A stretch of 64,000 nt of DNA from Mycobacterium botniense (GTDB lineage: Bacteria; Actinomycetota; Actinomycetes; Mycobacteriales; Mycobacteriaceae). The stretch is from assembly GCF_010723305.1 (NCBI RefSeq), contig NZ_BLKW01000002.1, positions 558,001-622,000 on the forward strand, given 5' to 3'. The notes beneath the pieces were generated by a model that saw nothing but the letters and a program-made list of their open reading frames with translations, was not told where the DNA came from and did no database searches. Both the position numbers and the translations under genes were made by a program. Below are positions 13,489 through 44,891 of the stretch, piece after piece. Every line of letters starts with the position of its first letter. Position 1 is the first letter of the stretch.

Positions 13489-13746
13489 TTAGTAGTGGTA
13501 TCGCGCCTTGAGCACTTTGACTTCCTTGTCGTCTGCCCGGTACACCAGCCGGTGTTGGTCATCGATGCGGCGCGACCAGTATCCGGACAGTTCTCCTTTC
13601 AGCGGTTCGGGTTTGCCGATCCCGGTGAACGGATCCTGTTGGATCTCGGCGATGAGGCGGACGATGCGGCGGGCGGTTTTACGGTCGGAGGCCAGCCAGA
13701 ACAGGAAGTCCTCCCAAGCGTCCGGGTCGAAGCAGATGCTTCTCAC
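13489..13746 (-). CDS. relK: RelK/YoeB-family toxin
   Basis: 85 residues from GTG 13746. It reads [18 protein letters not shown] at the N-terminus and ends [17 protein letters not shown], the typical YoeB fold with the C-terminal ARYHY catalytic segment. It is very similar to M. tuberculosis RelK (Rv3358) as I recall it. YoeB toxins bind the ribosome and cleave mRNA at the A site. The start codon overlaps the relJ stop (GTGA), so toxin translation is coupled to antitoxin. Length and motif are complete; it looks functional. Confidence 0.92.
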
Positions 13747-14027
13747 TGCTGGCCGCCGGCCATCTCCCTCAGCTCGTTTATCGATGTGCTGTGTACCGGG
13801 TGTCCGGATTTGTCGCGGGCGACGGCTTCCATCAACCGCCGGGCGTTTTCTGGTGAGCGCAACAGATACACCGTCTCTTGCCACGAGTCGTAGTCGTCGG
13901 CCGACATCAGCACCGCGTCACCGGCCCGGGAGGTGATGCGCACGGGCTCGTGATCGGTGTTGACTTGCTCCAGCAGAGGAAACAGGCGTTGGCGGGCTTC
14001 ACTTGCGCTGATGCTCACGTCGGACAC
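13743..14027 (-). CDS. relJ: RelJ/YefM-family antitoxin
   Basis: 94 residues, a Phd/YefM antitoxin: [17 protein letters not shown] at the DNA-binding N-terminus, then [20 protein letters not shown] and a C-terminal toxin-binding tail ending MAGGQQ. It closely matches M. tuberculosis RelJ (Rv3357). It neutralises RelK and represses its own operon by binding an array of TGTAC-type sites just upstream (14036-14082). First gene of the relJK operon. Confidence 0.92.
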
Positions 14028-15944: not shown

Positions 15945-16589
15945 TGTGGGCTCGGGTCGCCGCGAGATCACCGGTGCCGTGCGTGGTTACCACGATGAGC
16001 TCACCGGATTGAACGATGGCGGCGCGGACGACACGGCTGTGCCCCACCCCGTGGCGGGGTGGCGGAGAGCGACAACATCAGGTCGCCGCCGGCGCGCAGG
16101 ATCGACTCCGGAAGAAACGTCTGATCGATAGGCTTGCCGTCGACGCTGAGCCCATTGATGTACGTCAGACCGTTCGACGCGCCCGGCGCGAAGACCCTGA
16201 TGGATGTCCCTGCGGGAAGCGCGATTTCGGTGCGATCGAACGCGGTGTGCCGTCGAACCCCAGATAGCGGCCGTCGGCGTCGTGAAACGTGTTGGGATGC
16301 AACAGCGAATGCAACAGCGCGGTGTAGAACGTCTTCACCTGGTCGCCACGGGCACCCGCCCCGACTGCGCGACAGCGCGGCGTGCCACGCGCTCGATGCG
16401 GCGGCGCGCACCGCGTCGAAACCCGCACCACCCTCGGCGGCCAGGTTGGCTCGCGCCCCCTCCACACTCACGGAAGACAACGCGGTACGCACCTCGAGCA
16501 CCGAGCCGGGCGCAAACTCCACCCATCCCTTACTGCACACCCGCCACGCGCGTGGGCGTTTCGAGCCGCACCGGCAGGAGGCTAGACCT
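15945..16589 (-). pseudogene. GH92 alpha-mannosidase relic (copy 2, internal deletion)
   Basis: Reading the minus strand, the first part ([20 protein letters not shown] to [11 protein letters not shown]) is nearly identical to the start of the large GH92 pseudogene at 23612. It then jumps to [17 protein letters not shown] and [20 protein letters not shown] near the C-terminus, so some 350 codons are deleted. Both copies begin at the same point (TCTAGCCTCCTGCC), lacking the same N-terminal region. The 5' edge overlaps the stop codon of the adjacent vapC. Confidence 0.75.
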
Positions 16590-16989
16590 TGATGATCGTG
16601 AGACCGGCCGCGCCGTCGAGGGCGGCAAAGTCGTCGTCCCGGGTGATGACCGGCAGCGCCCGTGACGCAGCGACGGCGGCGATCCACAGATCGTTGATCC
16701 GGACTCGCCTGCCAGTTTCGGCCAGGTGGATGCGCAGCCGCGCCCACATCCGCGCCGCTTCATCGTCGACGGGCAGTGTTTCCATGTCGGCAACAAGCTG
16801 CAGGGTCGCGAGCCGTTGCGCTCGAATATCAGTCGTGCCGGCGGCCAGCACGCCGGCGGTGAGTTCGGCGAGGGTGACCACAGTCGTGGCCACCTCGGCG
16901 GGGATCAATCGCTCCTCGAGTTGACGACCCGTTTCGGTGGCAATGAACACCGACGTGTCGAGCACCCCCGCTGCGGGCGTCTCGCTCAT
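16582..16989 (-). CDS. VapC-type PIN toxin
   Basis: 135 residues. [14 protein letters not shown] starts the PIN domain; E in [10 protein letters not shown] in [10 protein letters not shown] near 100 and TRDDDFAAL near 115 complete the acidic site. RNase toxin of a Phd-VapC pair; ATGA overlap with its antitoxin at 16986. Its stop codon lies in the sequence joined to the GH92 relic, so the last residues may derive from that junction. Confidence 0.88.
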
Positions 16990-17246
16990 CGGAGAGGGCC
17001 AAGATCGTCGGTGGTGTCACCGGCCAGCGCCGCGAGGTCGTCGCGCAAACCCGGATCGGCTTGTGCACGAGGTAATCGCTGCAGGAACTCGGTTTTGGTC
17101 AACCAGCGCCGCCCCGATGGCCGAGCCGCGCTGAGCACTGCGACGGGCCGGCCCTTGACAGTGATGGTGATGTCTTCGCCGGCTTGGACGCGGCGCAGCA
17201 CTCCTGCCGTATCGTTGCGCAGGTCCCGGGACGCCACCTCCGTCAT
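16986..17246 (-). CDS. Phd/YefM-type antitoxin
   Basis: 86 residues from ATG 17246: MTEVASRDLRNDTAGVLRRV, then GEDITITVKGRPVAVL, the Phd/YefM DNA-binding fold, with an acidic C-terminal tail. Partners the PIN toxin downstream. The start lies inside the predicted operator, implying a very short or absent 5' leader. Confidence 0.88.
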   Translation of the reverse strand: MTEVASRDLRNDTAGVLRRVQAGEDITITVKGRPVAVLSAARPSGRRWLTKTEFLQRLPRAQADPGLRDDLAALAGDTTDDLGPLR

Positions 17247-17272
17247 GCTACAAGTGTAGCACTTGCGTAGCA
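17246..17272 (-). promoter_or_regulatory. Palindromic operator over the antitoxin start
   Basis: TGCTAC (17246-17251) and GTAGCA (17267-17272) flank a CAAGTG-TAG-CACTTG inner palindrome, directly abutting the ATG. The GTGCTAC/GTAGCAC half-sites resemble the operator at 17726-17743 of the neighbouring antitoxin operon. Confidence 0.55.
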
Positions 17273-17338
17273 TTCGCTGGCGCCCTCGCTCCCCCGCCAC
17301 GTCCGATCACTCTCCAGCGCTTCACCGGCCAATCGCGG

Positions 17339-17751: not shown

Positions 17752-18006
17752 GTGGCCAAGCAGATCACCCAGCGGGAGCTGCGTAATAACAGCGGCGAGA
17801 TCATGCGCCAGCTTGATCAAGGCGAGTCGTTCGTCGTGACCAGGAACGGCGTCCCGGTCGGCGAGCTGTGCCCGCTGCGCCGGCATCGATTCGTCGCCGC
17901 CGAAGCGGCTGTCGCCGCGTTCAGGGGCGCTCCGCGGGTGGACTTCGACCGGTTCCGACAAGATCTCGATCGGGCAGCCAGCCAGGAGATCGCGCCTCGT
18001 GGCTGA
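17752..18006 (+). CDS. Phd/YefM-type antitoxin
   Basis: 84 residues from GTG: MAKQITQRELRNNSGEIMRQ, then GESFVVTRNGVPVGEL, a Phd-type DNA-binding unit, and a C-terminal helix DFDRFRQDLDRAAS that would wrap the toxin. It overlaps the PIN toxin gene by 8 nt. Only 8 nt separate the palindrome from the start, so the mRNA is probably leaderless. Confidence 0.88.
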   Translation: MAKQITQRELRNNSGEIMRQLDQGESFVVTRNGVPVGELCPLRRHRFVAAEAAVAAFRGAPRVDFDRFRQDLDRAASQEIAPRG

Positions 18007-18412
18007 GGCTGCGCGTGCGGCGCGGGGACTCATCGACACCTCGGTCGTGATCGATCTGGATCACCTCGACGCCGAGCAGCTCCCCAGGGAACTGGCCATC
18101 AGCGCCCTTACTATGGCTGAACTCGCCGCCGGTCCGCACGCAACGGCCGATGCCGGCGAGCGCGCACGACGTCAGGATCGCCTACAGCGAGCCGAGGCCA
18201 ACTTCGATCCACTGCCGTTTGACAGCGACTCGGCGAGGGCCTATGGACGCGTCTACGCCGCGATCGCCGCGACGGGTCGAAAGGCACGTGGTCCCCGAGC
18301 CGTCGATCTGTTGATCGCCGCCACCGCCGTGGCCACCAACCTGCCGCTGTACACACGCAACGTCGATGACTTCCAGGGGCTCGAACGCGTACTGACCATC
18401 GTCGGCATCTGA
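17999..18412 (+). CDS. VapC-type PIN toxin
   Basis: 137 residues: GLIDTSVVIDLDHLD at the N-terminus, E in TMAELAAGPH, D in RGPRAVDLLIAATAVA and TRNVDDFQGLE. All four acidic positions of the PIN nuclease are in place. Second gene of a Phd-VapC operon with the antitoxin at 17752; predicted RNase toxin. Confidence 0.9.
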   Translation: MAEAARAARGLIDTSVVIDLDHLDAEQLPRELAISALTMAELAAGPHATADAGERARRQDRLQRAEANFDPLPFDSDSARAYGRVYAAIAATGRKARGPRAVDLLIAATAVATNLPLYTRNVDDFQGLERVLTIVGI

Positions 18413-18618: not shown

Positions 18619-18813
18619 ATGCGGACGACGATCGCCTTGGATGATGACCTCGTCCGAGAAGCGCAGCGCTTGACGGGAACCACCGAAAAGAGCGCGTTGG
18701 TTCGTGAGGCCCTGCGAGCACTGATCGAGCGCGAAAGCGCCCGACGTCTAGCCAAACTGGCGGGCAGCGAACCCACGCTGGAAGCCGTCCCGAGACGGCA
18801 GACAACACGGTGA
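18619..18813 (+). CDS. vapB: VapB antitoxin
   Basis: 64 residues: MRTTIALDDDLVREAQRLTG, a ribbon-helix-helix antitoxin, then EALRALIERESARRLAKLAG. A strong GGAGGT ribosome site precedes the ATG. Overlaps vapC by 4 nt. Represses and neutralises its cognate VapC. Confidence 0.92.
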   Translation: MRTTIALDDDLVREAQRLTGTTEKSALVREALRALIERESARRLAKLAGSEPTLEAVPRRQTTR

Positions 18814-19181
18814 TCCTCGTCGACACGTCGATTTGGGTTAAGCACCTGCGCGTCGGCGACCCACAGCTTGTCACCCTCCTGCAGGACGGACACGTGCTGA
18901 CCCACCCGTGCGTCATCGGCGAACTCGCACTCGGCCAATTGTCTCGTCGCAGCGAGATTCTCGGGCTGCTCCACAACCTTCCGCACGCACAGACCGCAAC
19001 CGACGCCGAGGTGCTGAACCTGGTCGAAAGCCGGCAGCTATTCGGGCTCGGCATCGGTTACGTCGATGCGCACCTACTGGCCGCGACGCTCCTAACCGCA
19101 GGAGCCCGCCTGTGGACAGGCGACAAGCGGCTCGCGACGGTCGCCGCACAGCTCAGACTTAGCGCGGAGCCGACGGCCTAA
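18810..19181 (+). CDS. vapC: VapC ribonuclease toxin
   Basis: 123 residues: MILVDTSIWVKHLRVGD, E in CVIGELALGQL, D in GIGYVDAHLLAATLL and TGDKRLATVA. A complete PIN domain of normal length, expected to cleave RNA when VapB is degraded. Starts within the last codon of vapB (GTGA overlap). Confidence 0.92.
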   Translation: MILVDTSIWVKHLRVGDPQLVTLLQDGHVLTHPCVIGELALGQLSRRSEILGLLHNLPHAQTATDAEVLNLVESRQLFGLGIGYVDAHLLAATLLTAGARLWTGDKRLATVAAQLRLSAEPTA

Positions 19182-21713: not shown

Positions 21714-23612
21714 TCACTCAAGCCCGGCCCGGCCGACTGCGACGATGAGCGTAAAGGTCCTGGCGCCCTCGCCGGCCGTTGTGGTGAGAACGACCGGGTA
21801 GTACCCGTCGAGCACGGATTTCGCCGCCGTGATCGTGGCGCTCTGGCTGGCTGATCCGTCGGCGGCGAATCGTCCGGACACCGGTGCCACCGCGATGGCC
21901 CCGCTGCTGTAGGAGCTGCCGGTGATGGCGTAGTCGGCACTGCCGTCGATCATCCGTTGCACATTGACGGTCACGGTACGCGCGGATCCGGGCGCGATCG
22001 CGACGATCGCCGGCGAGACGTTGATGGTCAGGGCCGAGTTGCCCCTGCCGAACGACGTTGGCGCGGAGGACTCGGCAGTACCCCAGAGCTTGCCGGGGAC
22101 GGCGGAGAGTGTGAACGTGAGGTCGCCACCGGTGCGGATGATTGACTCCGGAAGAAACGTCTGATCGGTGGGCCGGCCGTCGATCCCGGATGCCCCCGGG
22201 GCGGAGATCCGGATGAATCTGCCTGCGGGAAGGGCGATTCGGATGCGATCAAAAGTGGTGTGTTCACGGTGAGGATCGGCGTTCCCGGGGTGACCGGGTA
22301 CATGCCGAGCGCGGCCCACACGTACCAGCTCGACAGCGCACCCAGGTCATCGTTACCGGGCTCGCCGACCGGTGTCGGCCCGAACAGTTCGCTGCGCACC
22401 CGGGCCACCGTCTCCTGCGTCTTCCACGGTTGACCTAGATAGTTGTACAGCCACGGCACCGCGAAGCCTGGTTCGTTGCCGAGCCACAGATACGGCTCGT
22501 CCGGGCCGGCGTTGAGCTGCGTGGCGAAGCGGTCCAGCCGCTCGGCCGCCGCGTCGCGTCCACCGAGGGCGCCCACCAGGCCGGCGATGTTCTGCGGCAC
22601 CATCCAGGTGTACTGCGCGGCGGTGCCCTCGTCGAATCCGTCCTTCCCCAAATCCGAAGTGGGCCCGCTGGATCTTGGCCATAGCACGAACATCTCCTCG
22701 GCGCTGCGGGGCGTGATGTAACCGGTCAGGGGGGTTGAACACGTTCCGCCAATACTGCGCCCTACTGTGGAATTCGGCTGCAATCACAGGCTCACCCAAC
22801 GCGTCGACGAATCGAAAGATCGCGAAATCATCAACCGACCACTCCAGCGTGATCGAGGCGCCGTCGATGCCGTGATCACCGCGAAACGGCACGGTCTGCG
22901 GCGCATAACCATGCTCCAGACAGGTGGTGATCCCCGGCCGCTGCACATAGCCGCCCCGCTCGCCACCGCCGTCGCTCGCCGCCTTCAACATGTAATACAG
23001 CGCCCGCTTGACATCAAAGTCCTTGGCCCCGAATGTGTACAGGTTGACGATCAGCGGAACCACGCTGTCTTCGGTCATTTCCCCGCTCGCCGCATTGGTC
23101 AGCGCCCACCGCCGCAACGACCCGCTTTGCTCAGCGTCGTTGACCAGCGACTGGGCCATATCGCTGGCCCGTTGCGGAAATAGCAGCGCCTGCAGGGCGG
23201 CCAGGCAACGGTAGGTGTCCCAATCGGAGAAGTTCGCGTACTGGGTGTGCCCGCGCGCCACCGTGTGCACCACACCGTCGAACCCCAGATAGGCGCCGTC
23301 GGCGTCGTGAAACGTGTTGGGATGCAACCGCGAATGATACAGGGCGGTGTAGAACGTCTTCACCTGGTCGCCACGGGCAGCTGCCACCCGACTGCGCGAC
23401 AGCGCGGCGTGCCACGCGCTCGATGCGGCGGCGCGCACCGCGTCGAAACCCGCACCACCCTCGGCGGCCAGGTTGGCTCGCGCCCCGTCCACACTCACGG
23501 AAGACAACGCGGTACGCACCTCGAGCACCGAGCCGGGCGCAAACTCCACCCATCCCTTACTGCACACCCGCCACGCGCGTGGGCGTTTCGACCCGCACCG
23601 GCAGGAGGCTAG
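21714..23612 (-). pseudogene. GH92 alpha-1,2-mannosidase pseudogene (5' truncated, two frameshifts)
   Basis: The minus strand encodes the catalytic part of a GH92 enzyme in three frames. These are 23612 to about 22745 ([36 protein letters not shown]), then to about 22265 ([54 protein letters not shown]), then to 21714 ([13 protein letters not shown] and a Big-like tail). The first shift lies in a run of six C, the second near ACACACC. The N-terminal 300 or so residues, including the usual signal peptide, are missing. GH92 enzymes trim alpha-mannosides. Sequencing error could explain a shift in the C-run but not the 5' truncation. Confidence 0.85.
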
Positions 23613-23717: not shown

Positions 23718-24443
23718 CTACTTGGCCCGGATGGCGGATTCAACCTCCTCGGCGGGTATTTCCTTAGTGCAAAAGTACCAGTCCTGGCACGTCATGCCCT
23801 CGGCGAGGGTTTCTTGTCGCTCTTTCATGCCGGTCATGTTTTCGGGAATGGGCAAGATGACGGGATCGCCGGGTTGCCAATCTGCCGGAGTGGCGACGCC
23901 GAAATGATCGGTGGTCTGCAAAGCCTTGATGACACGCAGCAACTCTGCGGAGTTGCGCCCGAGAATCAGCGGATAATAGATGATTGCGCGGATGACTCCT
24001 TTGGGGTCAATGAAAAAAACCGCTCGCACCGCTTTGGTGGAATCCTCGCCCGGCATGATCATCCCGTATTTCCGCGCGACCTGCTGAGACGCATCGTCGA
24101 TCACCGGAAAAGTGACATCGACATTCTTGTGATCACGGAAGGTGATCTTGTCTTTGATCTGCTGAAGCCAGGCGAGGTGGCTGGCGATCCCATCGACTGA
24201 GAGGCCCAATAGCTCTGTGTTGTAAGCCGCCAATTGTTGCTGCATCGAGGCAAAAGTCACAAATTCTGAGGTGCAGACCGGGGTGAAATCTCCCGGGTGC
24301 GAGAAAAAGATCACCCACTTACCTTTATAGTCTGCGGGAAAATGGATCTTACCCTGGGTGGTGACTGCAGTGAATTCCGGAGCCGGGTCACCGATACGCG
24401 GCATAGTTGTGGTGGCGCCCGATCCCTCGGCGGTGGTGGTCAT
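23718..24443 (-). CDS. 1-Cys (Prx6-type) peroxiredoxin
   Basis: 241 residues. GDPAPEFTAVTTQGK, then the peroxidatic site SHPGDFTPVCTSE near residue 55, DGIASHLAWL, and a long C-terminal arm with PVILPIPENM as in the Prx6 subfamily. Reduces hydrogen peroxide, organic or possibly persulfide-type peroxides using a single peroxidatic cysteine. Two more cysteines (CQDWYFC) lie near the C-terminus. A GGAAAGGA ribosome site precedes ATG 24443. The lower GC and rarer codons (many AAA, ATT) resemble the neighbouring sulfur genes, and the gene lies directly downstream of ctaD, so it probably belongs to the same acquired region. Confidence 0.92.
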   Translation of the reverse strand: MTTTAEGSGATTTMPRIGDPAPEFTAVTTQGKIHFPADYKGKWVIFFSHPGDFTPVCTSEFVTFASMQQQLAAYNTELLGLSVDGIASHLAWLQQIKDKITFRDHKNVDVTFPVIDDASQQVARKYGMIMPGEDSTKAVRAVFFIDPKGVIRAIIYYPLILGRNSAELLRVIKALQTTDHFGVATPADWQPGDPVILPIPENMTGMKERQETLAEGMTCQDWYFCTKEIPAEEVESAIRAK

Positions 24444-24503: not shown

Positions 24504-26246
24504 TTAGTGTTTCGCGCTGAGTTCCGGGGCTCGCTCGTCAGCATCGGAGCGTCTGTTGCGACGACCGATATGGGCTTCGGCGCGTAACCGGGGGATCATG
24601 TGGGGGTAGTGCAGCTCGAACGCCGGGCGCTCGGAGCGGATTCTGGGCAGTTCGTAGAAGTTGTGCCGCGGGGGTGGGCAGGTGGTCGCCCACTCCAGGG
24701 AGTTGCCGTAGCCCCACGGGTCGTCGACGGTGACCGGTTCGCCGTAGCGCCAGCTTGTGAACACGTTCCACACGAACGGCAGCATCGACGCCCCCAGGAT
24801 GAACGCCCCGATTGTGGAGACCACGTTAAGCGGCTGGAAGCCGTCGCTGGGCAGATAGTCGGCGTAGCGGCGTGGCATGCCCATGTCACCGAGCCAGTGC
24901 TGCACCAAAAACGTGGTGTTAAACCCGATCAGCGTCAACCAGAAATGCAGTTTGCCCAGCCGCTCGTCCAGCAGCCGTCCGGTCATCTTCGGAAACCAGA
25001 AATAGATCCCGGCGAAGGTGGAGAACACGATGGTGCCGAACAGCGTGTAGTGGAAATGCGCGACCACGAAATAGCTGTCGGTGACGTGAAAGTCCAGCGG
25101 CGGGCTGGCCAACAGCACCCCGGAGAGCCCGCCGAGCAGGAAGGTGACCAAAAAACCGAACGCCCACAGCATCGGTGTTTCGAAGGTCAGCTGGCCCTTC
25201 CACATGGTGCCAGCCCAGTTGAAGAACTTCATTCCGGTCGGCACCGCAATCAGATACGAGGTCAAGCTGAAAAACGACAGCAGCACCGCGCCCGTGGCGA
25301 ACATGTGATGCGCCCACACCGTGATCGACAGCCCGGCGATGCCCAGGGTGGCATAGACCAGGGTGGTGTAGCCGAAGACGGGTTTGCGGCTAAATACCGG
25401 GAAGATCTCGGTGACGACCCCGAAGAACGGCAGCGCCACGATGTAGACCTCGGGGTGGCCGAAAAACCAGAACAGGTGCTGCCAGAGGATCGGACCGCCG
25501 TTGGCCGGGTCGTAGATATGCCCCCCGAGATGGCGGTCGTAGGCCAGCGCGAACAGCGCGGCGGTCAGCACCGGGAAAGCGATGAGCACGATGATCGAGG
25601 TCACCAAGATGTCCCAAGTAAAAATCGGCATCCGAAACATCGTCATCCCGGGTGCGCGCATGCACACCACGGTGGTGATCATGTTGACCGCGCCCAGGAT
25701 GGTGCCCAAACCGGCCACAATCAGACCCATGACCCACAGGTCGGCGCCAGCACCCGGGTTGTGGACGGCGTCGGACAGCGGGGTGTAGGCGGTCCAGCCG
25801 AAATCGGCCGCCCCGCCGGGGGTGATGAAACCCGCGAGTGCGATCAAAGCGCCAAACAAAAACAACCAGAACGACAACGCGTTCAGCCGGGGAAACGCCA
25901 CATCCGGGGCGCCGATTTGCAGCGGCAGCACCAGGTTGGCGAAGCCGAACACGATCGGGGTGGCATACAGCAGCAGCATGATGGTGCCGTGCATGGTGAA
26001 CAGCTGGTTGTACTGCTCATTGGACAAAAACTGCAAACCGGGTGCTGCCAACTCGGTGCGCATCAGCAGCGCCATCAGACCGCCGATGAAAAAAAGGCTC
26101 ATGCAGGTGACCACATACATGATGCCGATCATCTTGTGGTCGGTGGTGGTGATCAGCTTGTAGATCAACGCGCCCTTGGGGCCCAATCGGGCCGGAAATG
26201 GACGGCGCGCTTGCAGCTCGGTAGCAGGCGGCGCTTCTGCAGTCAT
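24504..26246 (-). CDS. ctaD: Cytochrome c oxidase subunit I
   Basis: 580 residues with about 12 membrane helices. Heme and copper ligands are visible: [11 protein letters not shown] (heme a His), [11 protein letters not shown] (Cu-B His plus cross-linked Tyr), WAHHMFATG (Cu-B His pair) and [10 protein letters not shown] (heme a3 and heme a His). Catalytic subunit of the aa3 oxidase that reduces oxygen. No ctaC or ctaE lies nearby, so this is a solitary, perhaps second, ctaD. It is divergent from the sulfur genes and shares with them an intergenic CsoR-type palindrome, suggesting use when sulfide would poison the main oxidase (inference). Confidence 0.96.
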
Positions 26247-26313: not shown

Positions 26314-26333
26314 TAATACCTCGGGGGGTATTA
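26314..26333. promoter_or_regulatory. CsoR/CstR-type palindromic operator
   Basis: TAATACC-TCGGGG-GGTATTA, perfect 7-bp arms around a G-rich centre, between ctaD and yeeE. CsoR-family repressors, including persulfide sensors of the CstR type, bind ATACCC...GGGTAT sites. No csoR-like gene lies in the window. Confidence 0.65.
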
Positions 26334-26473
26334 TGCGAGGGAGTCGTTTCGTCGGTGAAATGGAGTCGCCCGGAGGACGGTGTGGCGTCTGATGAGATCG
26401 GTCGAGCCCGCAACGCACCGCAAGGACGCAGCCGGCTGATGATTGGCCGATCGTGGTGGGGGCCGGCGAACCG

Positions 26474-27688
26474 ATGATCGCAGTCACCGCTCCGTTATGG
26501 GTTGGTCTGGTTGTCGGGATGCTCTTTGGCGGCATCGGCGAGCTGTGGGGCATCGGAAACCCCGAGACCCTGATCCGGCTGGCGCGTTGGCAGGACCGAC
26601 TGGTGGTGGGTTGCATCGCCATCGTGTGCGCTATTGGTGCGGTGAGCGTCTATGGCCTGTACGCTCTGGGGTTCTCAATGCATTTTTCACCGAAGCCGAT
26701 ATATGTTGTCGGTGTGGTCATCGGTGGACTTCTCTTCGGTGCTGGAATGGCTATTTCCGGGTATGTGCCGGGGTCTGAATTGATGGCTCTTGGAGAAGGA
26801 CGACAGGATGCGTTCTATGCCTTTCCCGGCGGCCTCCTCGGTGCCGCGGCCTGGACAGTCTTATATCAAACCGGACTCGGCGATTGGCTAGTGCACACAG
26901 CCGATTACGGCGATCTCGTTGTTTCCGGGTCGATCCACCAGATTCGTCCGGCGTTCACGTTGCTCGTCGCGATTGCCTACGCCATCGCCCTTCTCGCCGT
27001 GGCGGCATTGCTGCCGCGTTATCGTGGTGGCACTAACTTTGTGACTCAAATGCTGCGGGGGAAAACCAATCAGCAGGATCGGGAATGGACGGCGGATACG
27101 GCGACATACTTGGCGGAAGGCGGTTTGGGCCAGCCGACATCCGGCTGGCTGCAGAACATAGTTGCCGATGTTCCTACGAGTAATTTTTATTCGCGGGTAA
27201 AACTGGGGACCAATATTTTCGTCGGCATCGTGATAACATTGGCGATTTTCCTGCATCAAATTTTTGGCGAATCGACGACATATTCGTGGTTCGCGGGTCA
27301 TTTATTTCTTTCTGATTTCGCGTACAGTAAATTAGTGTTCCGGGAGATCGGCTGGGAGCCTTTTTCGGATATCGGAACTTTTCTGGGCGCCTTGATCTCA
27401 GCCCTGTTTGTGAGTCGGTATTTTCAGAATTTCAGACCGGTCATCCCGCCGTCGTGGCGTAACCGGTTCGGGCCGAGTCAATCAAAGCGAGCTGTGGGCA
27501 GCTTCGCTGGTTTTTTCCTCCTGATGTTCGGTGCCCGGATGGCGGACGGCTGTACCAGTGGGCATATCCTCAGCGGGGGAGTGCAGATGGCCGTCAGCGC
27601 CTGGGTGTTCGCGATCGCCGTCTTCATCGCGATGATTGGGACCGCTCGCATCGTCTATGGGAACGCCAGCGTCAAGGTGTCCGGATGA
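26474..27688 (+). CDS. YeeE/YedE-family sulfur transporter
   Basis: About 404 residues, roughly 9-10 membrane helices, two YeeE/YedE halves. The C-terminal half keeps the cysteine motif DGCTSGHILSGG. In the N-terminal half the equivalent GYCPGT position reads SGYVPGSE, so its cysteine is lost. YeeE (TsuA) moves thiosulfate into the cell by relay between cysteines. ATG 26474 is chosen; GTG 26453 is in frame. First gene of a six-gene sulfur run; the next gene overlaps by 4 nt. The segment 27170-27430 is strikingly AT-rich, a sign of transfer. Confidence 0.85.
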   Translation: MIAVTAPLWVGLVVGMLFGGIGELWGIGNPETLIRLARWQDRLVVGCIAIVCAIGAVSVYGLYALGFSMHFSPKPIYVVGVVIGGLLFGAGMAISGYVPGSELMALGEGRQDAFYAFPGGLLGAAAWTVLYQTGLGDWLVHTADYGDLVVSGSIHQIRPAFTLLVAIAYAIALLAVAALLPRYRGGTNFVTQMLRGKTNQQDREWTADTATYLAEGGLGQPTSGWLQNIVADVPTSNFYSRVKLGTNIFVGIVITLAIFLHQIFGESTTYSWFAGHLFLSDFAYSKLVFREIGWEPFSDIGTFLGALISALFVSRYFQNFRPVIPPSWRNRFGPSQSKRAVGSFAGFFLLMFGARMADGCTSGHILSGGVQMAVSAWVFAIAVFIAMIGTARIVYGNASVKVSG

Positions 27689-27912
27689 CAAAACAGGAGA
27701 TACGGCTACTGGTCGTCGTCATGTGCGGTGCGGCAGCGACGTGTCTGGTAGCAGGATTGGTGACCCACAACCGCGCGTCGACTCCGCTGACGCTGGCTGA
27801 GGTGCTGATTCCAGCCCTGATTCCGGCCGGGCTCCTCGGCTACGTCACGGTCTACTACCGGTCGGGTACCTCAGACGGGCGCCGAAGCCGGTCGACAACC
27901 GAAGGGAGATGA
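27685..27912 (+). CDS. Small membrane protein of the sulfur operon
   Basis: 75 residues, two hydrophobic helices (LLVVVMCGAAATCLVAGL near 8 and VLIPALIPAGLLGYVTVYY near 40) and a basic tail. No family recognised. ATGA overlaps with the genes on both sides show that it is translated as part of the operon. It could be an accessory subunit of the neighbouring transporter. Confidence 0.7.
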   Translation: MTKQEIRLLVVVMCGAAATCLVAGLVTHNRASTPLTLAEVLIPALIPAGLLGYVTVYYRSGTSDGRRSRSTTEGR

Positions 27913-27914
27913 TC

Positions 27915-28196
27915 ATGCAGGATCAGCAGCAGGCGCCGATACCCCGCGGGGCGTTCGGGATGCCCAAGCCCCAGGGGTGGACGATTGAGCGAGTGGTCAA
28001 CCTGATGGCCGGTGTCATGGTGCTGCTTACCCTGGCCCTGGGGCGGGTAGTTTCTGGCCGCTGGCGCATTCTTACCGCGTTCGTCGGCGCAAATCTCATT
28101 TTCGATGCAGCGGTGGGGTGGTGCCCAGCCAGTGTGCTGCTGCATCGACTGGGGATTCCCACCGTCATCGAGCGCGCCCAGACCCGTGATAGGTGA
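27915..28196 (+). CDS. DUF2892 (YgaP-like) membrane protein
   Basis: 93 residues. Reads WTIERVVNLMAGVMVLL, then RWRILTAFVGANLIF and WCPASVLLHRLG, the DUF2892 pattern of two helices with a conserved GxCP. In other bacteria the domain is fused to rhodanese sulfurtransferases or encoded beside them. ATG 27915 is preferred because AAGGGAG lies 6 nt upstream. Overlaps the TauE gene by 11 nt. Confidence 0.8.
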   Translation: MQDQQQAPIPRGAFGMPKPQGWTIERVVNLMAGVMVLLTLALGRVVSGRWRILTAFVGANLIFDAAVGWCPASVLLHRLGIPTVIERAQTRDR

Positions 28197-29052
28197 TCCA
28201 ACCGCCGGTCTTATCGCTGCGCTGCCGTTAGGTTTTGTGATCGGGCTCGCATTGGGCGGTCTCGGCGGGGGTGGCTCGATTTTGGCGGTTCCGGCTCTGG
28301 TGTATGGGGTGGGCGAATCCGCCCACACGGCGACGACGACGTCGCTGGTGGCGGTGGGAGCCACCTCGCTGGTCGGAATGATGAGCTATTGGCGCGCGGG
28401 CCGGGTGCGGGTCGTCGCGGGGCTCACCTTCGGACTGCTCGGGCTGGGCGGATCGCTGCTCGGCTCCCTGACGAGCAGATCGATTCCCAACAACGTTTTA
28501 CTGCTGGCGTTTTCGGGTTTGATCCTGGTCGCCGGGTGGCGAATGCACATCCGCTACGCAGAGACGCCCTGCTGCGCGAAGCAGCTGGCTGCCGTCAGCG
28601 CGGGGCAGGACTCGGCAACCGGCGTGGGGGGTCCCGCGTTGACAGCGACGGATAAATCCGCCAGGCATAAGTCCTCGCGCTTCGCCGCCGCGGGCAAAGT
28701 GGTGATCGCCGGCAGCATCGTGGGTTTTCTTACCGGGTTGTTCGGTGTGGGTGGCGGTTTCGTGATCGTGCCCGCACTGGTCTTGGCGCTGGGCTATGAG
28801 ATGCCCGTCGCCGTCGGGACTTCACTGCTGGTCATCGCCATCAGTTCGGGTGAAAGTCTGCTGTTTCGTCTCTCGAGCGAAGAGATCGACTGGCAGGTGG
28901 CGATCCCGTTCACGGCGGCTGGACTGGTCGGTGTGCTCGTCGGGGGTGCGACCGCCACGCGGGTGCCGGCCGAGCGACTCACCCGGTGGTTCGTGTGGTT
29001 GCTCATCGCAGTCGCCACGTACACCGCAGTCCAGTCCCTGATGACCATGTGA
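28186..29052 (+). CDS. TauE/SafE-family sulfur anion exporter
   Basis: 288 residues from GTG 28186, about 8 membrane helices in two repeats (GLGGGGSILAVPALVYG and FGVGGGFVIVPALVLALG). TauE/SafE carriers move sulfite, sulfoacetate or similar anions across the membrane. A cytoplasmic loop holds CC (ETPCCAKQL). In this operon it would remove the products of sulfide or thiosulfate metabolism. Confidence 0.88.
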   Translation: MIGDPTAGLIAALPLGFVIGLALGGLGGGGSILAVPALVYGVGESAHTATTTSLVAVGATSLVGMMSYWRAGRVRVVAGLTFGLLGLGGSLLGSLTSRSIPNNVLLLAFSGLILVAGWRMHIRYAETPCCAKQLAAVSAGQDSATGVGGPALTATDKSARHKSSRFAAAGKVVIAGSIVGFLTGLFGVGGGFVIVPALVLALGYEMPVAVGTSLLVIAISSGESLLFRLSSEEIDWQVAIPFTAAGLVGVLVGGATATRVPAERLTRWFVWLLIAVATYTAVQSLMTM

Positions 29053-29096
29053 GCAAATGATTTCTCAAGAGTTACTAACGAGAGGAGCACCACATC

Positions 29097-29453
29097 ATGG
29101 CAGCATCCGAGCAGTCGACTCTGGTGGTGCTCACGACCGGCAAGGAGGCCTTCGTCCGGGCTAACGCGGTGTTGCAGATGACGTTGATGGTGCGCAAGAC
29201 CGGCGGGATGGCGGTGGAGTTGCTGCTGCTGGGTCCCGGTGTGGAGATTTTGCGTTCGAACCAAAAGAATTCTGCGCAGTTCGAGCAGCAGTTGGGCGAG
29301 CTGCGTCGGGCGGGTGTGCGGATCAGTGTCTGTGAGGTATCCCTGGCAAACCTGGGGCTCACTCGAGATCAGATGTTTGATGCTGATGTGGTGAAGGGTG
29401 GAGTGGAGGTGGGTACCCGGGTTGGGCAGGGCTGGAATGTTCTGACGTTTTAA
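29097..29453 (+). CDS. DsrE-family sulfur carrier protein
   Basis: 118 residues. STLVVLTTGKEAFVRANAVL start, LLLLGPGVEIL core, and one conserved cysteine in VRISVCEVSLANLGL near residue 79, followed by VGTRVGQGW. DsrE/TusD-like proteins carry sulfane sulfur on this cysteine. GAGAGGAG ribosome site. Placed between the exporter and the sulfide-quinone-reductase-like flavoprotein. Confidence 0.85.
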   Translation: MAASEQSTLVVLTTGKEAFVRANAVLQMTLMVRKTGGMAVELLLLGPGVEILRSNQKNSAQFEQQLGELRRAGVRISVCEVSLANLGLTRDQMFDADVVKGGVEVGTRVGQGWNVLTF

Positions 29454-29495
29454 AAGATCTGGTCATCTGAGGAAACCGACAGAAAGGACCTGCCG

Positions 29496-30770
29496 ATGGG
29501 CACGGCCAAACCGAAGGTGGTGGTGCTGGGCAGCAGCTTCGCCGGGCTGACCACGGCCCGTTTCATCCGGCAGCACGCCGGGGACCGGGTCGATCTCGTG
29601 GTCGTCGACCGTAACCCCTATCTGACGTTCGTGCCGAATATCCAGATGGAGGTCCTCGCCGGGCACGACCCGCTGGAGACGATGCTGCTCGACACCCCGG
29701 CTATCCACGTCAAGGACGGCAACACGTTTTTAAACGCCGAGGTCGTAGCGCTGGACCCGGATGCCCGCCGGGTGCAGATCGTGCCCAGCGACCGGCCCGG
29801 CTCGGCGGTGGAGAGCCTGGCCTATGACTATGTGGTGATCGCGCTGGGCAATCGGTTGGCCTACGACCGGATCGCCGGGTTCGGTGAGCACGGCGACGCG
29901 GTGTCCAGCGGCTTTTACGGCAACAAGCTGCGCCGGCGGCTGGCGGCCTACAGAGGGGGTCCGATCGCGATCGGTTCGGCCCGATTCCATCAAGGCCTGC
30001 AGGGTAAGCCCGACTGGCTGCCGGTGGGCCTGGCGGCTTGTGAGGGCCCGCCGCTGGAGCTGGGCCTGGCGATGGCGCACTGGCTTGAATCCCACCGTCT
30101 CGGCGATGCGCACAAGATCACGTTGTTCACCCCAGCGCAGATGATCGCCGAGGACGCCGGCGAGGCGATCGTCACCTCGTTTTTGCAGATGGCCGCCAAG
30201 AAGGGGTTCGGTTATCTCAACAACACCGTCGACGTGACCCGCCTGCACGCCGAGGGGATCGAGTTCGAATCCGGAGCCAGCCTGGAGGCCGAGATCAAGA
30301 TCGTCATCCCCGACTGGGTGCCCCACCAGTTCCTGGTGGAACTGCCGATCACCGACGAACGCGGTTTCGTGCTGACCGACCGGCGCATGCGCAACCCCAC
30401 CCATCCGGAGATCTTGGCAGTCGGCGACGCCGCCGCCCTGACCGTCCCCAAGCTGGGCAGCCTGGGGCATCAGCAGGCCGAGATCGCCGCGCGTCAGATC
30501 GCGATCGCCGTTGGGGCGCTCGGCCACGACGACGCCGGCCCCGAATATCACCCCGAAATCCTGTGCTTCGGCGACATCGGCGGCCACCAGGGCTTCTATA
30601 TCCACTCCGACACCTGGTACGGCGGCACCACCAGCGTGTTCAAGATGGGCCACGCGCCCTACGCAATGAAGCTCGCCTTCAAAGAGATGTACTTCCGCAC
30701 CGGCGGCAAACCCCCGGCCTTCGGGGTACCCGCCACCCACCTGCTGATGGACCACTTCCCCGGCGAATAA
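29496..30770 (+). CDS. Sulfide:quinone oxidoreductase-like flavoprotein
   Basis: 424 residues. FAD motif VVVLGSSFAGLTTARFI, VVDRNPYLTFVPN, the second dinucleotide site near 145, AVGDAAALTVPKLG for FAD, and a C-terminal membrane-associating part (FYIHSDTWYGGTTSVFKMGH). Cysteines occur in GLAACEGPPLELG near 180 and EILCFGDIGG near 357, the positions expected for the SQR disulfide or persulfide pair; the third SQR cysteine is absent. It would oxidise sulfide to polysulfide and pass electrons to the quinone pool. A type II NADH dehydrogenase relative is the alternative. Confidence 0.8.
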   Translation: MGTAKPKVVVLGSSFAGLTTARFIRQHAGDRVDLVVVDRNPYLTFVPNIQMEVLAGHDPLETMLLDTPAIHVKDGNTFLNAEVVALDPDARRVQIVPSDRPGSAVESLAYDYVVIALGNRLAYDRIAGFGEHGDAVSSGFYGNKLRRRLAAYRGGPIAIGSARFHQGLQGKPDWLPVGLAACEGPPLELGLAMAHWLESHRLGDAHKITLFTPAQMIAEDAGEAIVTSFLQMAAKKGFGYLNNTVDVTRLHAEGIEFESGASLEAEIKIVIPDWVPHQFLVELPITDERGFVLTDRRMRNPTHPEILAVGDAAALTVPKLGSLGHQQAEIAARQIAIAVGALGHDDAGPEYHPEILCFGDIGGHQGFYIHSDTWYGGTTSVFKMGHAPYAMKLAFKEMYFRTGGKPPAFGVPATHLLMDHFPGE

Positions 30771-30799: not shown

Positions 30800-32206
30800 T
30801 CAGCCGACCAGGGTCCGGGCCGCTTTTCCGATGCCCTCTGCTGCGGTGGGATGCTGGTCGGCGAACCGGGCCAGGTCATAAGCGGTCAGTCCCGCTGCCA
30901 CCGACTCGCCGATCTGACCGATGAGCTGCGCTGCGTCAGCACCGACCACCCAACCACCGACCAGCCGCAAGCTCTGAGCGTCACAAAACAGCCGGATCTC
31001 CCCGTAGGTATCCCCGAGGATCTGGGCCCGCGAGTCATCGGCCATCGGGTAAGCGGCCTCCACCACCTGCCGTGCCTGCTCGGCGGCTTTAGCCCGGGTC
31101 AGCCCCACGTAGGCGCCCTGGGGAGCGGTGAAAATGGTGGCCGGCACGGAATCGAAATCCATCCGGTCGACCACCCGATTGCCCGCCAAGATGTTGTGGG
31201 CGGCCACCAGGGACTGGCGCACCGCCGAGTGAAAGAGCATGGATCGGCCGTTCACGTCGCCGGGCGCATACAGGTGGGGGTAGCCCGGTACCTGCATCGA
31301 CACGTCCACCGCCAAACCGTGACCGGCCCTCGGAAGACCCAGCTCTGTTGCCCCGTCGGGGATCACCGGTCGCCGGCCCACGGCCATCAGCACCAGGTCC
31401 GCGTCGACCGTGGAGTCGGCATCGCCGATGCGGTAGTGCACCGTGAAGCCGCCGCCGTCGCCCTTCGTGACAGCGGTGACCGACGCGGACAACTGGATGC
31501 TGATGGTGGGGTCGATTCCCGCGGCGAGCAACGTGACGAAATCCGGATCCATGCCGGCCAGCAACCCCGGCAGGGCCTCAATCACCGTGACCTGGCTGCC
31601 CAAAGCACGCAGCATGCAGGCCACCTCCAAGCCGACGTAGCCGCCGCCTATCACCGCGAGACGGGCAGGCAAGCTGGTGACCGTCGGCTCGAGCGCGAAC
31701 AGATCGCGGCTGGTGACACACAGCTGCGCGCCGGGGATGGGTGGCACGAACACATCGGCCCCGCTGGCGATGATGATCTGGGCCGCCTGAAACCGCTTAG
31801 CCGACCCGGTGGTGTTCACCTCGACGGTGTGGGAATCGATCAGTCGCCCGGTGCCGGGCACCAGACGCAGGTTGGCACTTGCCGCCTGCAGTTCCCCGTC
31901 ATGCTGGCGATAGCGATCCTTTTGTACCTGGTCTTTCCAGGCGACCACCTGTGCGTAGTCGGGGGGCCCGGTGAGCGCCCCGAGCGCCCGACTCATCGGC
32001 GCGGCGGTGACTCGCCGGTACAGCTCGGCGACTTCATAGACGGCCTTAGACGGTACGCACCCCTCGGCCAGGCAATTACCGCTCATCACGCCCTTCGGGT
32101 CGACCATCACCACCTGCTGACCGGCCCGGGCCAGCGCGAACGCGGCCGGGTAAGCGGCGCCCCCGGCGCCCAACGTGATCGTGTCGACCTTTTCGGGTTC
32201 GGTCAT
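30800..32206 (-). CDS. Dihydrolipoamide-dehydrogenase-like disulfide reductase
   Basis: 468 residues from ATG 32206 (GTG 32233 also in frame). GAGGAAYPAAFALA FAD site, the redox disulfide GNCLAEGCVPSKA, NAD site VIGGGYVGLEVACML, APGDVNG, and the C-terminal HPTAAEG with the catalytic histidine. A complete member of the Lpd/mercuric reductase family. No lipoyl complex genes are nearby. It converges on the SQR-like gene with only 29 nt between stops, so a role in reducing sulfur-carrier or persulfide species is plausible but not shown. Confidence 0.85.
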   Translation of the reverse strand: MTEPEKVDTITLGAGGAAYPAAFALARAGQQVVMVDPKGVMSGNCLAEGCVPSKAVYEVAELYRRVTAAPMSRALGALTGPPDYAQVVAWKDQVQKDRYRQHDGELQAASANLRLVPGTGRLIDSHTVEVNTTGSAKRFQAAQIIIASGADVFVPPIPGAQLCVTSRDLFALEPTVTSLPARLAVIGGGYVGLEVACMLRALGSQVTVIEALPGLLAGMDPDFVTLLAAGIDPTISIQLSASVTAVTKGDGGGFTVHYRIGDADSTVDADLVLMAVGRRPVIPDGATELGLPRAGHGLAVDVSMQVPGYPHLYAPGDVNGRSMLFHSAVRQSLVAAHNILAGNRVVDRMDFDSVPATIFTAPQGAYVGLTRAKAAEQARQVVEAAYPMADDSRAQILGDTYGEIRLFCDAQSLRLVGGWVVGADAAQLIGQIGESVAAGLTAYDLARFADQHPTAAEGIGKAARTLVG

Positions 32207-32291
32207 CGCAGTCACCAGTTCTCGGTAGTTCACGGTTCGTCGAGATCACAGGAAGGCTAGCCGCCACGGTCGGCCCCGCGTCAACCATCGT

Positions 32292-36186: not shown

Positions 36187-36442
36187 TGCGCACCATATTC
36201 TTCACCAGCCAGCCGCGTGAACTGCGGAAACACACAGACACCACAGCAGCTCAGGCCGCGACCCCAAGAGAAACGACCTCGTTCTGGCTCCCAACCCCCG
36301 GCTCGCTACGCTGCCAGCCGCACCCACCGGTGAACGGCTCTCACCCAACATGCACCAATTCATGGGGCCCGGTCACGATTTCGGTTTCGACAAACTCATT
36401 GGACTAACCTAAGACTAATCCAAAGATTCCTGCTTACTTCCT

Positions 36443-36784
36443 TTAAGTGAGCGCGATCTTCTCGCCTTTTTCAGTGAGATTCAACCAGCATTCCCATGGC
36501 CACCACAGCTGATCGTCGAAATGGGTGGCATAGAGATCGTATATCCGTTGTATCGATTCGTCGGGTGGCGTGTTCCATACAACAAAACGTCCGCCCTCAC
36601 CCAATAGGTCACCTAATTCAACCAATCCGTCTCGTACCAGGGACCGAATCGTTAACAAGGTCTCTTGCCGCACGTCAGACCTAGACGCTCAAGGATTTTC
36701 CTGAGAGACATACCAGTGAACTTGACCCAAATCTACTCAGTCATCAAGGCCCTCGATGAGAATTTTCTCGCGCGCACTCATCAT
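36443..36784 (-). pseudogene. Paralog of the 10076 protein with two in-frame TGA codons
   Basis: From ATG 36784 the frame reads MMSAREKILIEGLDD-TGA-VDLGQVHWYVSQENP-TGA-ASRSDVRQETLLTIRSL and continues to EKGEKIALT, aligning end to end with the protein at 10076-10510. The reading frame is otherwise conserved. A GTG at 36673 could still start a 76-residue C-terminal part. Confidence 0.75.
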
Positions 36785-36813
36785 TCACTAATACCCTTGC
36801 TCGATGCGCTTGA

Positions 36814-37056
36814 ATTACCCTTACAGGGTACGGTACATCAGCGCGCAGCCTCAGTGGTAATGTCAAGGCGGATTCCAGTGAACGTCGCAACGGGACGGTT
36901 GCAACACTACTGGAGTTCTGCGACCCGACGCATCGCTCCTGGTCATTAGTTTGTGATCTCCGGCAGCTTGGGACTCACGCACTTGAGATGCTCGCCGCCA
37001 TGGTCACCGCCCAAAATCCTCGTGTCGGCTCGGTGATTGACACGCTTGGCCGGTAG
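36814..37056 (+). pseudogene. Open stretch of coding character, no start
   Basis: Frame reads NGTVATLLEFCDPTHRSWSL, LRQLGTHALEMLAAMV and SVIDTLGR-stop. The composition is protein-like, but no family, start codon or ribosome site is visible. Probably the end of a lost gene. Confidence 0.3.
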
Positions 37057-42620: not shown

Positions 42621-44183
42621 GTGCCCGCGGTGCCGGGCGGTCTGCCGCCGCTTCCGGAGGTGCGGTTCTGGTCGGTCTCCCCCCTGCTCTCGCTTGCCGC
42701 GGATGTGCAGGCGAAGGCAGAGCGCTGCCAGGCGTGCTTTTCTGAGGCCTACACGGTGCTGTCGGCGCCCGGCTGGAAGGGCGCCTTCCGCGACACCACC
42801 GTCGAGCGCGCGGCGATCGCCAAGACGCGGGTGGACGGGGCGGCTGATCAGCTGCGGGAGACCGCGAACACGGCCCGCCGTGGCGCGGAGCGCATCAGGG
42901 CAGCCAAGAAGTACGCGCTGGAAAAGGTCAGCGAGGCGGAGCGCGAAGGCTTCGAAGTCGGTGAGGATTACAGCGTCACCGACACCCACCGTGGCGGCAC
43001 CGAGCAGCAGCGCGCGGCCCGGGCGCAACAGGGCGCGGTGCTGCGGGCCGACATCCGCCACCGGGTGGCGCTGTTGGTGGCCGCCGACCGGGAGGTCGGT
43101 GAGCAGGTCACCGCGGCGTCGGCCGGGCTGGCCGAATTCGGCTTCCCCGAAGACATACCCGGCACCGGCGGGAACGAGCACGCAGACCCGGCGTCCGGCG
43201 CGACCGACATGTCTTCGGGTGACATCACCGCCATCGATAAGGCCAACCGCGGCCTGCTCGACCAACTCGAGCGGGAATACCGGGCGCTGCCCGACGGCCA
43301 AATCAAAACCGACCGGTTGGCCGACATCGCGGGCATCCGCTCGGCACTTCAGGTGCCCGACTCGCACCTACTGTATCTGGCCCGCCCCGACGACCCCTCG
43401 CAGATGATCCCGGCGGCTGTCGCCATCGGCGACCCGTTCACCGCCGACCATGTGTCGGTGACCGTGCCCGGGGTGTCGGGCACCACCCGGGAAGCCCTCC
43501 CCACCATGACGCAGGAAGCCCGTGACCTGAGACGGGAAGCGCAGGATATCGCAGGTAAAGTCGGCGAAAAATATCCAAGTGTCTCGACGATCGCGTGGAC
43601 CGGATATCAGCCCCCGCCGACGCTGGTCTCGGGGGACACCCCCTTCGCCGATTTGGCGCACGCCGGGGCGCTCAGGCTGGAGTCGTTCCTGGCGAACCTG
43701 AACGCGGCGTCGCACAACCCGAACCACACCACGGCGTTGTTCGGGCACTCTTACGGGTCGCTGGTCTCGGGGATCGCGCTGAAAGACGGCGCCAGCTCGG
43801 CGGTGACCAACGCGGTGATGTACGGTTCGCCGGGCTTTGAGGCGACCTCCCCGGCCAAGCTGGGCATGACCGACCACAACTTTTTCGTCATGACCGCCCC
43901 CGACGACCCGATCCGGCTCATCGCGGCCACCGCCCCGTTGCACGGCTGGGGCGCCGACCCCAACGACATCATCGACGGCCCGCCCGTGCCGCGCTACCGA
44001 TTCACGCACCTGCAGACCGAGGCGGGCTGGGTGCGCCTGGGCGGTGAGGACATCTACGAAAGCGCCTCCCATGGGCACGGCGGATATCCCCACGACCCGA
44101 TGCACCAGATGACCGGCTTCAACCTGGCGGCGGTGCTGTTGAACCGGCCCGACCTCACCGTGCAGGTGCAACCCCACCAATGA
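42621..44183 (+). CDS. Alpha/beta hydrolase (DUF1023-type)
   Basis: 520 residues from GTG 42621. The N-terminal 190 residues are helical and coiled (AADVQAKAERCQACFSEAY, LRETANTARRGAERI). The C-terminal part holds VSVTVPGVSGTT, STIAWTGYQPP and the nucleophile elbow LFGHSYGSLV (GHSYG), then FVMTAPDDPI (acid) and ESASHGHGGYP (His). Such proteins follow a small ESX-like partner and occur in pairs with lipoproteins in mycobacteria; substrate unknown. The stop overlaps the first lipoprotein gene (ATGA). Confidence 0.85.
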   Translation: MPAVPGGLPPLPEVRFWSVSPLLSLAADVQAKAERCQACFSEAYTVLSAPGWKGAFRDTTVERAAIAKTRVDGAADQLRETANTARRGAERIRAAKKYALEKVSEAEREGFEVGEDYSVTDTHRGGTEQQRAARAQQGAVLRADIRHRVALLVAADREVGEQVTAASAGLAEFGFPEDIPGTGGNEHADPASGATDMSSGDITAIDKANRGLLDQLEREYRALPDGQIKTDRLADIAGIRSALQVPDSHLLYLARPDDPSQMIPAAVAIGDPFTADHVSVTVPGVSGTTREALPTMTQEARDLRREAQDIAGKVGEKYPSVSTIAWTGYQPPPTLVSGDTPFADLAHAGALRLESFLANLNAASHNPNHTTALFGHSYGSLVSGIALKDGASSAVTNAVMYGSPGFEATSPAKLGMTDHNFFVMTAPDDPIRLIAATAPLHGWGADPNDIIDGPPVPRYRFTHLQTEAGWVRLGGEDIYESASHGHGGYPHDPMHQMTGFNLAAVLLNRPDLTVQVQPHQ

Positions 44184-44860: not shown

Positions 44861-44891
44861 GCGATTCCGCAACGCGGGAAGCGGTGAGCCG

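Follow-up and report, generated by a model that had tools for sequence, protein, structure and literature searches.

A probable divergent sulfide-response island in Mycobacterium botniense: sulfide-oxidation genes of likely foreign origin and their candidate regulator, a native CstR-type protein

The subject of this study is a divergent gene island arranged around a palindrome in Mycobacterium botniense (genome G000, 4.34 Mb in 4 contigs), which lies in a 64,000-nt stretch analysed as a whole and called the window below. Its closest counterparts are circuits of other bacteria, which are compared here as the excerpted parts of the cited papers present them. ScCsoR, the sulfane-sulfur repressor of Streptomyces coelicolor, is a CsoR-like protein that binds ATACCn6GGTAT, has two such sites in one promoter and includes a sulfite transporter among its targets (PMC7533328); that circuit has a dioxygenase and a rhodanese, whereas the island instead has an SQR-like (sulfide-quinone reductase-like) flavoprotein, DsrE, YeeE, a peroxiredoxin and an extra ctaD, and its candidate repressor is unlinked. 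The cst operon of Staphylococcus aureus likewise joins a CstR-type dithiol repressor to SQR and TauE (PMC5480029), but its CstA and CstB are without counterpart in the island, which adds DsrE, YeeE, a divergent oxidase subunit and a peroxiredoxin. In Methylacidiphilum fumariolicum SolV, sulfide raises SQR, the DsrE-type carrier DsrE2 and a dedicated terminal oxidase (PMC10205796); the latter is a separate, sulfide-insensitive ba3 enzyme, while the island encodes a paralogue of the ordinary aa3 subunit I at the same promoter region. The two-cysteine CsoR-family repressor TTHA1953 of Thermus thermophilus is also unlinked to its sulfur-oxidation targets, but these are Sox genes and its site is TACNNTACNNNNGTANNGTA (PMC10318464). 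The FisR/BigR operons of Acinetobacter baumannii share with the island SQR with TauE and a YeeE/YedE protein in a sulfide-response operon, and cydAB is sulfide-induced in that organism; their regulators belong to other families, persulfide dioxygenases are present, and oxidase genes are not described in those operons in the excerpted account (PMC7315123).

We read the island, with a probability of about two in three, as a divergent sulfide-response unit in which an imported sulfide-oxidation module and a ctaD-peroxiredoxin pair would answer to a native CstR-type repressor. What the DNA shows directly is the set of genes with their palindrome, a candidate repressor, the fact that such sites recur, and where the genes fall in phylogenetic trees. 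The components are of known kinds and their combination appears to be new: the titles and abstract openings searched yielded no mycobacterial CstR, no sulfide-linked ctaD and no case in which a CstR-type operator lies in a divergent promoter between a run of YeeE, TauE, DsrE and SQR on one side and a spare ctaD with a peroxiredoxin on the other.

From these parts we infer the following binding, catalytic and transport steps. The repressor (encoded at C4:1704980) would sit on the palindrome while its cysteines are reduced; persulfide or polysulfide would link the two cysteines, release the DNA and open both transcripts. On the rightward side SQR would oxidise sulfide and pass the electrons to the quinone pool, DsrE would load sulfane sulfur on Cys79, and YeeE, a 75-aa protein, a YgaP-like transmembrane (YgaP-TM) protein and TauE would carry sulfur species across the membrane, TauE most likely exporting sulfite or thiosulfate. 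On the leftward side the extra CtaD would join the ordinary aa3 oxidase, so that the capacity of this enzyme is maintained or increased in the presence of sulfide; the peroxiredoxin would clear any surplus of sulfane sulfur or peroxide. DsrE and SQR would have come from other actinobacteria by lateral transfer, the repressor, ctaD and operator being mycobacterial. Such a circuit would name a testable candidate for a mycobacterial persulfide sensor together with its likely operator. Sulfide hits the oxidase subunit CtaD, and tying sulfide removal to an extra copy of that subunit may place respiration under joint control. It may also help to explain mycobacteria in acidic, H2S-rich caves, since SQR relatives occur in 'Ca. 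M. methanotrophicum' and Mycobacterium sp. SM1.

The operator and its candidate repressor

The original prediction placed a CsoR-type operator ahead of the rightward run, and its letters hold up exactly: TAATACCTCGGGGGGTATTA is the sole match with up to two mismatches in the window, and none of 100 dinucleotide shuffles gave any. The start of the divergent ctaD is 67 bp away from it on one side and the earliest start possible for YeeE 119 bp away on the other, and a weak promoter-like match towards ctaD (26359-26330, 9/12; shuffle mean 0.1) overlaps its right edge. A search of the genome for a CstR-type CsoR protein, which the same prediction had proposed, found one on another contig at C4:1704980. 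It has the CsoR-family fold (PF02583, 80.7 bits, cut-off 22.8; such pairs of bits and cut-offs here come from Pfam and NCBIfam profile searches) and carries Cys39, Cys68 and, where both copper-type paralogues have His, Gly64. This pattern is the same in all of the 20 best-scoring repressor loci, its own included, and relatives of the protein occur in 168 of the 198 genomes of the genus sampled. Within 80 bp upstream of the gene there are two palindromes, one exact and one with a mismatch; of the same 20 loci, 18, that is all but L057 and L068, have TACC-N6-GGTA in the 400 bp upstream. The claim of CsoR-type control thus gains a CstR-type protein in the genome and an operator whose form matches that of a proven sulfane-sulfur repressor, even though control by copper has also to be considered. 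Because the ScCsoR site has this form and the region upstream of RicR has a spacing of N7 here, the CstR-type protein is the best candidate for control of the island palindrome.

The pattern ATACC-N6-GGTAT has six exact sites in the genome and its reversed control none. They lie in this island, before an AhpD-like gene leading to a second ctaD, between a second YeeE gene and a peroxiredoxin gene, before an Lpd-like gene, before the repressor gene and before an MmpS-type gene; five of the six adjoin sulfur, redox or repressor genes. Two of them belong to a second, rearranged island at C2:839-846 kb, which comprises the AhpD-like gene, ctaD, TauE, a YeeE gene with an in-frame stop and the peroxiredoxin. 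A further site with one mismatch stands 57 bp before a second SQR-like gene, whose product matches solved SQRs at 2.8e-33. Twelve hand-picked relatives hold 64 exact sites against three control matches; 18 of these 64 came as loci, of which nine adjoin sulfur, redox or repressor genes, two MmpS-like genes, and seven are without a recognised neighbour. In one relative, G013, a pair of sites separates rhodanese and TauE genes from the gene of a metallo-beta-lactamase-rhodanese protein, and such genes are the usual content of a CstR/ScCsoR regulon.

It is quite unlikely that copper governs the island, with RicR or CsoR instead of a CstR-type protein on the palindrome, the whole being copper-tuned since the divergent ctaD encodes a copper enzyme and the sulfur genes being passengers or serving copper-sulfur chemistry. 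CtaD is a copper protein, and two of the three CsoR-family proteins in the genome do have the Cys-His-Cys copper pattern, one of them passing the RicR model (188.9 bits, cut-off 175). The operators of copper-sensing CsoR proteins also share the TACC/GGTA halves (PMC3902906). Yet the RicR upstream region of this genome carries ATACC-N7-GGTAT, one base longer, and that of CsoR a different, GC-rich palindrome, while the CstR-type gene has its two N6 sites; the N6 sites in the genome precede peroxiredoxin, Lpd-like, AhpD-like and SQR-like genes, and no recognised copper gene stands at the relatives' 18 site loci, seven of which are without any recognised neighbour. The spacing TACCC-N5-GGGTA, tried for copper control, gave three sites against two control matches, and no copper regulon emerged.

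Three observations made around these sites are recorded for their own sake. The palindrome before the MmpS-type gene (PF05423), ATACCGGGTAGGGTAT, is identical in three genomes (L071 1501-1516, that is G000 C4:1201627; G083 C4:664941; G251 C22:241427), and the gene is a possible further member of the regulon. A [NiFe] hydrogenase run (L014 2661-6820; G000 C4:1695660-1699819) lies a few kb from an Lpd-like gene and the CstR-type repressor; it has sub-cut-off matches to sulfhydrogenase subunits (for example ShyA, 276.7 of 700 bits) and is possibly linked to polysulfide reduction. The second YeeE copy (L013 11629-12852; C2:843631-844857) contains one in-frame TAG, and its TauE, ctaD and peroxiredoxin neighbours are open.

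The flavoprotein and its neighbours

By sequence the flavoprotein is SQR-like rather than like a type II NADH dehydrogenase, as had been proposed. Its best structural match is 3h8i (residues 7-404, 2.1e-47), which we take to be the Acidianus SQR; the next matches are chains of SQR and flavocytochrome c sulfide dehydrogenase, including 3hyv, 'Sulfide-quinone reductase', at 5.5e-11. Cys182 and Cys357 align with cysteines of 3h8i and are invariant in 13 of 13 aligned relatives. We regard the protein as an SQR at the level of the family, with a predicted activity. That it is instead an NADH dehydrogenase of type II or some other member of Pyr_redox_2, leaving the island only thiosulfate or sulfite to handle, is very improbable: Pfam does place it in the generic Pyr_redox_2 family, the PDB label of 3h8i is NADH oxidase and the NCBIfam SQR model (type III, selenoprotein subtype) gives 65.8 of 525 bits, but the SQR and flavocytochrome c entries outrank the NADH-dehydrogenase-like 4nwz and 5na1, and the cysteine pair is invariant.

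The sole cysteine of DsrE is likewise invariant (6 of 6 aligned). YeeE is in the Sulf_transp family, yet reaches just 53 of 400 bits on the TsuA model NF052577, below the cut-off for thiosulfate transporters, and is classed as a YeeE/YedE-family protein only; the directions originally assigned, import of thiosulfate and export of sulfur anions, are unsupported guesses. A peroxiredoxin of Synechococcus reduces S8 to H2S via a cysteine pair (PMC9426444, in part), a loose parallel, as the island protein is of the 1-Cys type by Pfam. The island holds no persulfide dioxygenase-rhodanese. Twelve Lactamase_B matches in the genome were considered as possible persulfide dioxygenases and none of the ten examined was convincing, which does not prove absence; for three of these proteins the NCBIfam hydrolase models stay below cut-off and the sulfur-dioxygenase model Blh gives at most 63.3 of 625 bits.

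The six genes from YeeE to the flavoprotein form one co-directional run with overlaps or short gaps, as described from the outset: YeeE and the 75-aa gene overlap by 4 bp, as do the latter and the YgaP-TM gene, while 44 bp separate TauE from DsrE and 42 bp DsrE from SQR. For TauE the GTG at 28186, which overlaps the YgaP-TM stop, is the more likely start over 28105. The island is wider than first noted and includes the divergent ctaD-peroxiredoxin pair, whose genes are 60 bp apart, and a convergent Lpd-like gene (Table 1). A relative of the Lpd-like gene adjoins SQR in several other genomes, and a second Lpd-like copy in the same genome sits behind a palindrome.

Table 1. Features of the island (window positions) and the matches on which their names are based
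Feature	Position	Strand	Basis
Peroxiredoxin (AhpC/TSA, 1-Cys Prx C-terminal domain)	23718..24443	-	PF00578, PF10417; NF009668 314.7 of 211 bits
Extra ctaD, aa3-type cytochrome oxidase subunit I	24504..26246	-	PF00115; NF050116 996 of 880 bits; tree
Palindrome TAATACC-N6-GGTATTA, candidate CstR-type operator	26314..26333		
YeeE/YedE-family sulfur transporter	26453..27688 (start 26453 or 26474)	+	Sulf_transp PF04143 88.3 bits, cut-off 27; 6lep 1.5e-7
75-aa putative membrane protein	27685..27912	+	No Pfam/NCBIfam family; beside YeeE in other genomes
YgaP-like transmembrane protein (DUF2892)	27909..28196	+	YgaP-like_TM PF11127 41 of 25.3 bits
TauE/SafE-family exporter	28186..29052 (open reading frame opens 28105)	+	TauE PF01925 158.5 bits
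DsrE-family protein, single Cys (Cys79)	29097..29453	+	PF02635 48.6 bits
SQR-like flavoprotein, Cys182 and Cys357	29496..30770	+	Pyr_redox_2 PF07992; 3h8i 2.1e-47
Lpd-like disulfide reductase, convergent	30800..32233	-	NF004943 579 of 432 bits

The extra ctaD and the link to respiration

The genome has three ctaD genes, the third without island-type neighbours in the flanks seen (about 1.2-1.5 kb). A tree of 27 copies from 10 genomes unites five of the island copies, which come from four genomes, on a single branch (91/94). This lies within an eight-row branch (84/85) that also holds three copies followed by a peroxiredoxin; 15 other copies form a separate branch (88/93), and four, that of the G319 cassette among them, belong neither to the eight rows nor to the 15. 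A single branch of all six island rows was accordingly rejected, the G319 copy falling elsewhere. TACC-N6-GGTA occurs within 1.5 kb upstream in four of the six island copies (window, second island, SM1 and G319), in one of the three peroxiredoxin-linked copies (imperfect) and in 0 of the 15 others. At residues 51, 309 and 329 the core island copies agree with one another and depart from the 15; Thr309, four residues before His313 (presumably a CuB ligand), is found in 5/5 core island copies and Ala in 15/15 others, which is at most a hint that the oxidase might withstand sulfide. G319 has a co-directional series, ctaD-YeeE-75aa-YgaPTM-TauE-cydA-cydB, and about 1.1 kb further along comes its repressor gene. 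The account of bd oxidase in PMC7315123 calls this enzyme refractory to sulfide. Given the pattern of ctaD genes and sites, cydAB in G319, the resistance of bd oxidase and the SolV parallel, a joint role in sulfide oxidation and respiration is the best reading.

A narrower reading overlaps with this one and differs in the benefit: the island would only protect from occasional sulfide, with ctaD as a dosage copy and no gain of energy. This is quite possible, though not what we expect. For S. aureus and Streptomyces, the excerpted accounts present the CstR-type regulons as circuits that clear sulfide or sulfane sulfur (PMC5480029, PMC7533328), but the cassette is repeatedly accompanied by genes for oxidases, among them cydAB in G319. 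The chemistry of SQR, moreover, feeds the quinone pool. A bolder version of the joint role is rather unlikely: the extra CtaD might be a sulfide-tolerant variant of aa3 subunit I, made only when a genus-wide CstR-type sensor detects sulfane sulfur, so that subunit exchange alters the oxidase and mycobacteria respire sulfide for energy in acidic, sulfidic places. If true, mycobacteria would have a persulfide sensor of their own that reshapes the terminal oxidase along with the metabolism of sulfur.

Several observations weigh against a CstR-controlled island with a joint role in sulfide oxidation and respiration. In the PDB the repressor does match 7mq1/7mq2 (1.3e-10), of which 7MQ2 is called CstR in a figure legend of a review (PMC9774590), a point in favour of the reading, but InrS ranks first (2.6e-12). 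Copper CsoR sites are close in form, the Streptomyces lividans consensus being ATATACCCCTNAGGGGTATAT (PMC3902906), and the excerpted ScCsoR paper itself likens its site to that of M. tuberculosis RicR (PMC7533328). The sixth exact site of the genome precedes the MmpS-type gene, and the relatives add their two MmpS-like loci and the seven without recognised neighbour. Only four of 20 YeeE loci have a site within 500 bp upstream, and of seven cassettes (YeeE 67-100% identity) those of G165, G230 and G282 are without an operator before YeeE or an adjoining ctaD. On the side of the oxidase, neither ctaC nor ctaE is found within the island, the branch supports in the ctaD tree are moderate, all under 95, the G319 copy is placed apart, and Ala309 is also present in the three peroxiredoxin-linked copies and the G319 cassette copy. 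Among the enzymes, no ortholog of the dioxygenase-like metallo-beta-lactamase-rhodanese protein of G013 was found in the genome (the best match is partial, 30%), and the third cysteine of 3h8i is Ser137 in the flavoprotein and Ser in 13/13 relatives. Not every SQR has the third cysteine, so the last point leaves membership of the SQR family standing.

Distribution, origin and composition

SQR was found in six of 396 sampled genomes of the genus and YeeE in 30 of 392, that of M. botniense included in both. The original prediction knew of no mycobacterial operon of this composition; the YeeE/75-aa/YgaP-TM/TauE cassette is complete in five other genomes of the genus and partial in a sixth, which leaves the complete set, DsrE-SQR included, as the sole special feature. 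Named genomes supplied 17 SQR loci: in mycobacteria they come from Mycobacterium sp. SM1, M. helveticum, 'Ca. M. methanotrophicum' (Sulfur Cave) and the metagenome-assembled genome (MAG) Bu41 (a fragment), and beyond these from Aciditerrimonas, Conexibacter and unclassified actinobacterial MAGs and, more distantly, from Bacteroides, Akkermansiaceae and Granulicella MAGs. TauE, DsrE and SQR are adjacent in L024 and L035, a pair of actinomycete MAGs that are close relatives of each other. The copy of the window groups, in the SQR tree, with those of SM1 and 'Ca. M. methanotrophicum' and two further proteins (100/98); row L047 of this tree is a wrong-frame open reading frame (ORF) that is to be disregarded and inflates the count of changes. 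Several transfers of SQR are likely because other mycobacterial copies fall elsewhere, and the flavoprotein looks laterally acquired. Ten non-mycobacterial loci (132 kb) contained no exact operator. A plasmid origin of SQR is unsupported: tblastn against 72,556 plasmid records (E <= 1e-50) returned one, from Thioclava, at 51.9%.

'Ca. M. methanotrophicum' tolerates low pH and high sulfide according to a commentary, seen in excerpt (PMC12542659). Its peroxiredoxin, ctaD, YgaP-TM, TauE, DsrE, SQR and Lpd genes are scattered over about 19 kb, with ctaD, DsrE and SQR in pieces and peroxiredoxin and Lpd open. In MAG Bu41 (L038, L098), ctaD and SQR lie in pieces among ORFs that by eye resemble transposases, beside an open YeeE-75aa-YgaPTM-TauE-Lpd run, as if the SQR part were decaying while the transporter part stays.

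The island had been called richer in AT than its surroundings, which is true of parts of it: against 65.6% GC for the window, YeeE has 56.9% and DsrE 59.4%, and, outside the span first noted, ctaD 61.6% and the peroxiredoxin 55.6%, but TauE (65.3%) and SQR (66.2%) do not differ in this way. The dip singled out at 27170-27430 is real, its 44.4% GC being the lowest of its size (none of 1275 sliding windows, set at a step of 50, goes as low). Fifteen other YeeE copies were entered for comparison (L094 gave no value), and in 14 of 14 measured the same stretch is below the rest of the gene; much of the dip is thus due to the segment of the protein encoded there. The AT-rich patch is therefore weak evidence for an insertion, a reading that was set aside. 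A second minimum of about 48% GC lies at 36300-36900 of the window, where a short ORF resembles one at 10076-10510.

Elsewhere in the window, ORFs that by eye resemble VapB/VapC-type toxin-antitoxin genes lie at 13743-14027, 16582-17300, 17999-18412, 18810-19181 and 48517-48744. The ORFs at 16165-16467 and 22353-23567 share a stretch of 26 residues and look like broken copies of one gene, and two tandem, very similar lipoprotein-like ORFs (44180-44860 and 44790-45572) have the stretch GCALYEKARKAGKELSNPYETQHLTEQQE in common.

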